Source of the DNA: Candidatus Cetobacterium colombiensis
Lineage (GTDB): Bacteria; Fusobacteriota; Fusobacteriia; Fusobacteriales; Fusobacteriaceae
Length of the DNA stretch: 64,000 bases
Direction of reading: 5' to 3'
Assembly: GCF_033962415.1 (NCBI RefSeq)
Contig: NZ_JAVIKH010000001.1
Location: 62,001 to 126,000, forward strand
Numbering within the stretch: position 1 is the stretch's first letter; every line of letters begins with the position of its first letter. The notes below the pieces were generated by a model. The model was not told the origin of the DNA, did not search any database, and saw only the letters and a list, made by a program, of their open reading frames with translations. Shown here piece after piece: positions 29,307 through 34,829 of the stretch. The position numbers and the translations under genes are program-made.

Positions 29307-30509
29307 ATGATGTATTTTATAACTTTTATTTTTTTAATTTTTTTAGCTTTCTATTCAAATTTTTTAGGAAAAATTGTAGAGAAAATTAAATTACCTTCAC
29401 TAATAGGAATGATGATAGCAGGTGCCTTAATAGGACCTTATGGATTTAATAAAATTCCAAATTTAGCTTTAACATTGGCTCCAATACTAAAAGATGTAGC
29501 TTTAATTATCGTTTTATTTATTGGAGGATTAGGAATAGGTGCTGATCAAATAAAAAAAATTGGTCGACCTGCAGTACTTTTAAGTATTATTCCTGCTACT
29601 TTAGAGGGGTTTGCAATAGCATATTTATCAACTATATTTTTGAATTTTTCTTTTGTACAAGGAGCAATTCTAGGATTTATAATAGCGGCTGTAAGCCCTG
29701 CAGTTTTAATTCCGTCTATGGTAAGTTTAATAGATAAAAATGTGGGCCAAAAAAAATCTATCCCTCAACTGTTATTAGTTGGAGCGTCTGCCGACGATTC
29801 TATAGCGATAACTCTTTTTACTTCGTTTTTAGCTATATATTTTCAAAAACTAGATGGTGGAACTTTTGATTTTAAAACTCAGCTGTTAACTATCCCAGTT
29901 TCTATTGTATTTAGTTTACTTATTGGATGGGGAGTTGGTTTTGTTGGTAAACTTAGTTTTTTAAAAATCAAAAATCTAAAATTAAAAATACTAACTGTTT
30001 TTATCATATGTTTATCGTTGAGATATATTGAAAATAAATTCCATTTTTCTTTATATAATTCATTATTAACAATAATGTCTTTAGGTTTTTTTATACGTTA
30101 CTATGGAAAAGATAGTTATAAAGATATCCAAAATGGTATGAATAACATTTGGAAATATGGAAAAATTTATCTTTTCACTTTTGTTGGTATGGCTATAAAT
30201 CCAAGTTTAGTTGGAGGATATTTCTTTATAGGATTAACTATTTTAACTTACTCTTTATCTATTCGTTCAGTGGGAGTTTTAATTGCTCTTATAGGAACTA
30301 ACTTAACCTATAAAGAAAGATTATTTTGTGTTATTGCATATTTACCAAAAGCTACTGTTCAATCTGCAAAGGCTGGAATTCCACTACAGATGGGAGTTGC
30401 AGGTGGAGAAGTTATGCAAGCAATAGCAATTTTAAGTGTTTTAATAACTGCTCCATTAGGTGCAATTGGAATAAATTCATCATATAAAAAACTATTGAAG
30501 AACTCTTAG
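29307..30509 (+). CDS. Cation:proton antiporter under fluoride riboswitch
   Basis: 400 residues with about 12 membrane helices of the CPA (Na+/H+ exchanger-like) fold. The start (FYSNFLGKIVEKIKLPSLIGMMIAGALIGP) and GASADDSIAITLF, with the paired aspartates of the ion site, are typical. It exchanges protons for a monovalent cation. Because a fluoride riboswitch precedes it, the likely role is relief of fluoride or acid/cation stress; direct fluoride transport is not established. No CrcB/Fluc or CLC-F gene is adjacent. GGAG precedes ATG 29307 (a second ATG follows at 29310). No obvious terminator separates it from the next operon. Confidence 0.9.
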   Translation: MMYFITFIFLIFLAFYSNFLGKIVEKIKLPSLIGMMIAGALIGPYGFNKIPNLALTLAPILKDVALIIVLFIGGLGIGADQIKKIGRPAVLLSIIPATLEGFAIAYLSTIFLNFSFVQGAILGFIIAAVSPAVLIPSMVSLIDKNVGQKKSIPQLLLVGASADDSIAITLFTSFLAIYFQKLDGGTFDFKTQLLTIPVSIVFSLLIGWGVGFVGKLSFLKIKNLKLKILTVFIICLSLRYIENKFHFSLYNSLLTIMSLGFFIRYYGKDSYKDIQNGMNNIWKYGKIYLFTFVGMAINPSLVGGYFFIGLTILTYSLSIRSVGVLIALIGTNLTYKERLFCVIAYLPKATVQSAKAGIPLQMGVAGGEVMQAIAILSVLITAPLGAIGINSSYKKLLKNS

Positions 30510-33383: not shown

Positions 33384-34712
33384 TTATAGAAAAATAAAGT
33401 ATCCAAGTAGGGGCAGTGTTAAAATTAACACAGGGATATTCAATTCTTTATATCTTCCAGTTAATACTTTTATTATAACATGAGATATAATACCCATACT
33501 CATTCCTGTTGCCATGTTATCTGTAAATACAGTAAACATTATTGTTATAACAGCAGGGACAAATTCAGTCATATCTTCCATATCAATAAATTTTATACTT
33601 GTCATCATTAAAATTCCAATGAATATTAATGCAGGTGCTGTGGCAGCAGAAGGAATTATATAAACTATCGGTGTTAAGAATATAGTAAATATAAAACAAA
33701 TTCCCGTTGAAATTGCAGTTAAACCTGTTCTTCCTCCAACTTCAACTCCAGCTGCAGATTCTAAGAATGTTGTTATTGTTGTAGAACCAAAAAGTGATCC
33801 AACAATAGTGGCAATTGAATCTACCAAAAATGGTTTATCCACTTCAGGTAAGTTTCCATTTTCATCTAAAAGTCCAGCTTGAGCAGAAACTCCTAAAAGA
33901 GTTCCTAAAGTACAGAAGAAATCTCCTACGAAAAATGTGAATATTAAAGGTAAAAATGCAAATTTTAAAGCTCCCATGATATCAAGTTTAAATGCGATAC
34001 TTGAAATAGATGGTGGCATAGAGAAAAAGCTTTCAGGGATTTGAGTTATTCCCATCGGAATTCCAAGAAGAGTTGTGACTACAATTCCTATTAAAACTCC
34101 ACCTTTTACTTTATTTAAAACAAGTGCAATTGTTATAAAAAGTCCGATTAAAGACAGTATGGTATTAGGATTAGAAATACTTCCCATAGAAATAGTTCCG
34201 TTAGTAATTGTCATAATTTGACCATTTTTAAATCCAACCATAGCTATAAAAAATCCTACAGCTACTCCTATCGCAAACTTTAAATTTTTAGGTATTGCTT
34301 CAACAATAAGACCTCTTAATCCAAAAACAGTTAAAAGTAAAAATCCTATTCCCGATAAAAATACCATTCCCATAGCAGTTTGCCAATTTACTAATCCACC
34401 AGCAACTAATGTATAAGCGAAAAATGCATTTCCTCCCATTGCTGGGGCCATAGCGAAAGGTCTGTTTGTGTAAAGACCCATAAGAATTGAAAAAACTGCT
34501 GATAATAAAGCGGTAACTATTGTTACAGCCTTCACATCCATTCCAGCTGCACTCATGAACATTGGTTGAACAATTAAAATGTATGCCATTGTCATAAAAG
34601 TGGTAATTCCAGCAGTAACTTCCGTTGAAATTGATGTGTTATAGTGGCTAAGTTGAAAATAAGAATCAATAGCTCTTAGCACACCATTGTTCTTTTGTTT
34701 AATGTTTTCCAT
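33384..34712 (-). CDS. NCS2 nucleobase permease (PbuG/adenine-guanine-hypoxanthine type)
   Basis: 442 residues, about 12-14 membrane helices. Family marks: NTSISTEVTAGITTFMTMAYIL near residue 23, the APAMGGNAFFAYT stretch, DFFCTLGTLLGVS, and ATIVGSLFGSTTITTFLESAAGVEVGGRTG, typical of the AzgA/PbuG subgroup that imports adenine, guanine or hypoxanthine by proton symport. The leader carries a purine riboswitch with a uracil at the ligand-specifying position, suggesting adenine as the regulating base. AGGAGG lies four bases before the ATG. Confidence 0.93.
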   Translation of the reverse strand: MENIKQKNNGVLRAIDSYFQLSHYNTSISTEVTAGITTFMTMAYILIVQPMFMSAAGMDVKAVTIVTALLSAVFSILMGLYTNRPFAMAPAMGGNAFFAYTLVAGGLVNWQTAMGMVFLSGIGFLLLTVFGLRGLIVEAIPKNLKFAIGVAVGFFIAMVGFKNGQIMTITNGTISMGSISNPNTILSLIGLFITIALVLNKVKGGVLIGIVVTTLLGIPMGITQIPESFFSMPPSISSIAFKLDIMGALKFAFLPLIFTFFVGDFFCTLGTLLGVSAQAGLLDENGNLPEVDKPFLVDSIATIVGSLFGSTTITTFLESAAGVEVGGRTGLTAISTGICFIFTIFLTPIVYIIPSAATAPALIFIGILMMTSIKFIDMEDMTEFVPAVITIMFTVFTDNMATGMSMGIISHVIIKVLTGRYKELNIPVLILTLPLLGYFIFL

Positions 34713-34720
34713 TACTCCTC

Positions 34721-34783
34721 CTAATAATAAGCCATTTACGGTGGCTTGTAGAAACTCCTGACCATATTACAGGATTATATCAG
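34721..34783 (-). promoter_or_regulatory. Purine riboswitch, adenine (U74) type, ending on the Shine-Dalgarno
   Basis: On the minus strand: P1 CTGATA (34783-34778), J1/2 with TATAATC, L2 ending ATATGG, J2/3 GTTTCTAC, P3 AAGCCA / TGGCTT around loop CCGTAAA, then A-T-T-A-T and P1 3' strand TATTAG (34726-34721). The base equivalent to position 74 of the B. subtilis xpt aptamer is T (34727), as in adenine aptamers. P2 is one pair shorter than in xpt or add. The P1 3' strand overlaps the first bases of the AGGAGG ribosome site (34722-34717), so ligand binding should hinder translation. Confidence 0.88.
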
Positions 34784-34800
34784 TGATAAAAATACAGGGT

Positions 34801-34829
34801 ATTGTACTATATTTCACAAATTTTGTCAA
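34801..34829 (-). promoter_or_regulatory. Promoter of NCS2 permease gene
   Basis: Minus-strand TTGACA (34829-34824), 17-base spacer, TACAAT (34806-34801). Transcription would start near 34794, about 10 bases before the aptamer, giving a leader of only about 80 bases. Confidence 0.75.

Follow-up and report, generated by a model that had tools for sequence, protein, structure and literature searches.

In direct translation attenuation, a mode of riboswitch control defined in 2007 and commonest for TPP, preQ1 and SAM-I (Barrick and Breaker, PMC2258182), ligand binding occludes the ribosome-binding site (RBS) directly. Some SAM-I switches have the Shine-Dalgarno (SD) sequence in the 3' strand of P1 (PMC2258182). 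In the passages of a 2024 review that treat direct occlusion, a single RBS base within the aptamer is considered enough for the Tte preQ1-I switch, and attenuation is described for another preQ1-I switch at RBS distances of up to 10 nt (PMC10907184). Barrick and Breaker (2007) considered it unclear why direct translational control is not commoner in other riboswitch classes; purines are absent from the common examples given there (PMC2258182), and the direct-occlusion passages of the 2024 review name no purine case (PMC10907184). We found no adenine OFF or direct-occlusion switch in the literature within our coverage, outside which most subscription papers lie. In the purine riboswitch add, the U equivalent to U74 pairs with adenine, and its replacement by C changes the specificity to guanine (PMC8191784).

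We detected a purine riboswitch (RF00167; 62.0 bits against a gathering score of 37) in the window, a 64,000-nt stretch of a contig from Candidatus Cetobacterium colombiensis, where it sits between a conserved promoter and the gene of an NCS2 purine permease (Table 1). The initial annotation had described a purine riboswitch at this position correctly, coordinates included, and had given no strand; it lies on the minus strand. The specificity base is U in all 11 orthologous leaders (U34727 in the window), from which the aptamer is predicted to sense adenine. We regard it as quite probable that this aptamer is a translational OFF switch that acts by direct occlusion.

Table 1 Features of the riboswitch leader and of the permease gene, in window coordinates
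Feature	Position	Strand	Remarks
-35 element TTGACA	34824..34829	-	96% mean identity between orthologs
-10 element TACAAT, 17-nt spacer	34801..34806	-	predicted transcript start near 34793 (conserved GTA)
Purine riboswitch match RF00167	34705..34802	-	62.0 bits, E 2.4e-8
P1 5' strand CUGAUA	34778..34783	-	possible extension by U34786 and C34785 past bulged A34784
P2 hairpin and L2 (UCCUGU AAUAUGG UCAGGA)	34756..34774	-	two pairs changed on both sides
J2/3 (GUUUCUAC), ligand-pocket strand	34748..34755	-	weak pairing with UAGGAG possible in the ligand-free state
P3 hairpin and L3 (AAGCCA CCGUAAA UGGCUU)	34729..34747	-	three pairs changed on both sides
Specificity base U, position 74 (xpt numbering), adenine type	34727	-	from alignment; PMC8191784
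P1 3' strand UAUUAG	34721..34726	-	invariant across all orthologs; A and G double as SD bases 1-2
SD sequence AGGAGG	34717..34722	-	4 nt ahead of ATG (34712-34710)
NCS2-family purine permease gene, 442 aa	33384..34712	-	PF00860, E 4.4e-35

The permease, for which NCBIfam gave no match, is 40% identical to E. coli AdeP/AdeQ, as against 33-34% to GhxP/GhxQ. It is probably a purine importer, and adenine is its likely substrate. The resemblance to AdeP/AdeQ was rejected as a guide to the transported base and to the ligand of the riboswitch, since a guanine-switch paralog shows the same bias.

The promoter TTGACA-17-TACAAT (34829-34801) matches 11 of the 12 consensus bases. Such a match is by itself no better than chance (16 sites in the 2.5-kb region against 15.7 expected); it stands above chance because the two hexamers are on average 96% identical between orthologs, unlike the 60 nt upstream (34%), so that conservation starts at the promoter. 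From its position, transcription is predicted to start near 34793, 10 nt ahead of P1 and thus where the initial annotation had it. The leader, estimated there at about 80 bases, would measure about 81 nt from this start to the ATG at 34712.

As had been proposed from the first reading of the DNA, the P1 3' strand runs into AGGAGG four bases before the ATG; the two share AG, an extent of overlap that the first reading had not given. The further proposal that ligand binding masks the ribosome site directly stands as far as P1 meets the SD, but base pairing accounts for it only in part. The 6-bp P1 contains just the A and G of the SD (2/6 bases) and leaves GAGG formally single-stranded; two additional pairs past a bulged A are possible in the window leader and would cover AGGA (about 4/6 SD bases). 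Because masking by pairing is partial, steric blocking would have to contribute, for which the preQ1-I cases in the direct-occlusion passages of the 2024 review (PMC10907184) are a precedent.

Between promoter and gene we found no terminator, anti-P1 strand or other expression platform, and there is no room for one. Complements of the segment formed by the P1 3' strand and the SD did not recur beyond chance, either upstream or in the coding sequence, and when a distinct downstream competitor of the P1 3' strand was sought, as in add or pbuE, the best duplex of every leader was no better than those of shuffled sequences. The suggested absence of a separate platform is therefore borne out, with the same geometry kept in 11 genomes, and the anti-P1 element that the initial annotation named as evidence against its reading was sought upstream and downstream, where none recurred above chance. 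The RBS thus lies within or against the aptamer with no separate platform, the arrangement that defines direct occlusion. Two candidate complements were rejected. The minimum-energy fold of one leader (L054) contains a coding-region hairpin of UAUUAUU and AAUAAUG; it is absent in the window, and downstream complements are at chance level. In L060, the segment has a strong complement upstream (-11.9 kcal/mol), but this matches the tRNA-like CCTCCTAAG ahead of the promoter and is not seen again in other leaders.

The same geometry bears on an explanation in which adenine-stabilised P1 alters pausing, Rho access or mRNA decay during transcription and the translation block is secondary. Coupling to Rho termination and co-transcriptional folding are discussed for direct-occlusion switches in the passages cited above (PMC10907184). 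We consider this distinctly unlikely here, as no intrinsic terminator occurs from promoter to gene and the primary geometry is at the SD, whatever comes after.

The orthologous permease with the same leader is encoded in ten Cetobacterium genomes (that of the window included) and in one genome of a sister genus (G020, 79% protein identity). Promoter, aptamer, UAUUAGGAGG and a spacing of 4-5 nt are kept in these 11 genomes. The adenine-type pattern occurs 11 times in 98 Fusobacteriota genomes, every time at this locus, and a reversed control pattern has no match in the same 98 genomes. When some 85,000 species genomes were scanned for a purine aptamer with a nearby GGAGG, Cetobacterium contigs with this leader were recovered (L099, L101, L104 and L128). 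Most Bacillaceae matches of this pattern (e.g., L086, L090 and L105) were rejected, as they have purine-rich P1 strands and no suitable start codon in range.

In an alignment of nine distinct leaders, 97.5% of the structure cells are paired and five pairs (two in P2, three in P3) have changed on both sides, a level reached in 1 of 500 shuffles; in slid versions of the structure merely 20-53% of cells pair. P1 is wholly paired yet nearly invariant, with a single one-sided change (G-U to A-U, in G020), so the alignment is consistent with P1 pairing but its covariation is no proof of P1. The near-invariance would fit a 3' strand with two jobs. The shortness of P1, just 6 bp with one G-U pair, could also mean that the aptamer is inactive because P1 is too weak, or that it senses another ligand; adenine affinity is known to depend on P1 stability, according to the part of PMC8191784 that cites Nozinovic 2014. 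The pocket and loop bases are nevertheless conserved while P2 and P3 covary, and we judge an inactive or differently specific aptamer very unlikely.

A genome of the same genus as G020 (G042) encodes an 81% identical permease behind a leader (L144) that reads TTGACA...TACAAT...TTTTAGGAGGTTAGATG and lacks the aptamer: promoter and UUAGGAGG are retained, with nothing of the aptamer between them. Promoter and SD thus seem to be enough for expression. The aptamer gives the impression of a separable addition, which may have been lost in G042 or gained elsewhere.

The window's genome (G000, 2.8 Mb) contains 11 purine riboswitches. In the other ten, some 45 nt or more separate the Rfam match from the start of the gene, and by eye many of these intervening sequences show terminator-like hairpins. 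U at position 74 is found in two of the 11, namely the permease leader and L009 (1501-1600 and downstream; G000:C26:13132), whose position 74 was read from an alignment and which precedes an adenosine deaminase gene (TIGR01430, 321.8 bits). L009 can form a 21-bp stem (-31.9 kcal/mol) that includes the P1 3' strand and is followed by AUUUUUU. As this terminator stem uses the P1 3' strand, adenine binding should prevent termination, which would make L009 a pbuE-type ON switch. The deaminase would then be raised by adenine and, if the OFF reading of the permease leader is right, the importer lowered.

Several further riboswitches were observed. Sister Cetobacterium genomes contain up to 15 purine riboswitches each. 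In G000, two divergent ones lie about 94 bp apart (L001/L010, G000:C11:87050-87339); one precedes an adenine deaminase-like gene, yet its aptamer is guanine-type, and the other precedes a gene that by eye resembles those of BMP-family lipoproteins. The same genome has two near-identical guanine-type aptamers (L004 and L006) in front of paralogous genes for lipoprotein amidohydrolase-like proteins. The window also contains a fluoride riboswitch (RF01734, 29206-29265 on the plus strand, 57.2 bits), which lies some 40 nt ahead of an ORF (29307-30509) for a 400-aa protein that resembles cation/proton antiporters.

Relative to the free ensemble, forcing P1 to form costs 0.2-0.9 kcal/mol in nine of the 11 permease leaders (1.3 in L060 and 3.5 in L059), a small cost that suggests a poised switch. 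Initiation energies were modelled from the anti-SD hybrid and the 30S footprint with 30, 60 and 90 nt of coding sequence. Using the full SD, the P1-free state was better in all 11 leaders, as expected of an OFF switch, by 0.8-4.7 kcal/mol, differences that are near the model error. The ligand-free SD is not wholly open, since J2/3 (UUUCUA) can pair with UAGGAG, and the probability of an open AGGAGG is 0.17 in the window leader. Such J2/3-SD pairing occurs in ligand-free ensembles and would be the basis of a translational ON switch, in which J2/3 or other strands hold UAGGAG without adenine, and adenine orders J2/3 and frees GAGG so that the ribosome binds beside P1. If the score covers no more than the openness of the stretch GAGG to AUG, 10 of the 11 leaders are indeed more open in the P1 state, and add and pbuE, the known adenine switches, work as ON switches. 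An ON reading is opposed by the preference of the full-SD model for the P1-free state, the origin of the J2/3 complement in the universal aptamer sequence rather than in a dedicated element, and the aptamer-less ortholog in G042, which has no activator in the aptamer's place. An importer turned on by adenine would also be physiologically odd beside an ON switch on the deaminase, and we hold an ON switch to be unlikely. The OFF direction is preferred because A and G would be lost from the SD hybrid, because of the predicted steric blocking and because of the physiology. The OFF translational switch put forward in the initial annotation is thus supported by the geometry in 11 genomes and by the full-SD energy model, its direction and its ligand being predictions.

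Under direct occlusion, transcription would begin some 10 nt ahead of P1. As long as adenine is scarce, the weak, A/U-rich 6-bp P1 would be about as stable as its alternatives, so that the SD would often be free and permease would be made. Adenine would pair with U74 and lock the three-way junction and P1, burying the A and G of AGGAGG (or AGGA, with the extension past the bulged A). The compact folded domain would then abut what is left of the SD (GAGG) and the start codon and keep the 30S subunit from loading; permease would not be made, and adenine would block production of its own likely importer.

The genome scan also returned guanine-type (C74) aptamers with the SD inside or against P1, in Bdellovibrio-like and deltaproteobacterial MAGs (L083, L085, L087, L089, L091 and L093). 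The gene behind the aptamer encodes endonuclease I in L089 (PF04231, E 2.7e-36) and an Exo_endo_phos protein in L083 (E 3e-6); small proteins that look secreted are also encoded, and that of L087 has an HNH match below the threshold. It is possible that guanine controls nuclease translation in these MAGs; a literature search on the guanine riboswitch in Bdellovibrio gave nothing relevant. In Spirochaetaceae, guanine deaminase-like genes (L084 and L123, near TIGR02967) have the SD just past P1 of a guanine-type aptamer, although an enzyme that degrades the ligand would be an odd target for an OFF switch.

On balance, we lean towards regarding the Cetobacterium leader as the first repressing adenine riboswitch, one that has no expression platform and occurs alongside an oppositely wired adenine switch on adenosine deaminase, so that one ligand would act through two geometries with opposite logic, matched to import and degradation. 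Together with the Bdellovibrio-like guanine-type cases, the locus shows purine aptamers in a direct-control arrangement more than once. With a leader of about 80 nt, a natural aptamer-less ortholog as control and an aptamer that ranks among the best studied in RNA biology, the locus is a simple system in which to ask how far the aptamer must overlap the SD for direct occlusion and how placement alone gives one aptamer an ON or an OFF output.

The guanine-type leaders of the Bdellovibrio-like MAGs (L083, L085, L087, L089 and L091) resemble that of Cetobacterium in the overlap of P1 with the SD and in the short gap from SD to start, but they differ in specificity, belong to an unrelated phylum and in several cases precede nuclease-like secreted proteins; their layout probably arose independently. 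The add riboswitch of Vibrio vulnificus shares with the Cetobacterium leader the aptamer class, the adenine-type pyrimidine and translational control, whereas add responds in the ON direction and has a sequestering platform apart from the aptamer, and in Cetobacterium P1 itself meets the SD, with OFF predicted. The pbuE riboswitch of Bacillus subtilis has the same aptamer class but is a transcriptional ON switch of an efflux pump, and its analogue in this genome is L009, not the permease locus. Also close in layout are Tte preQ1-I, SAM-II, preQ1-II and the TPP and SAM-I switches with direct translation attenuation, which have the SD in or against the aptamer and no platform, and in which the ligand blocks initiation, as is predicted here; their aptamers and ligands are different. 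Direct-occlusion translational OFF control is established for preQ1, SAM-II, TPP and SAM-I, and as far as we found, what is new in Cetobacterium is the adenine aptamer.
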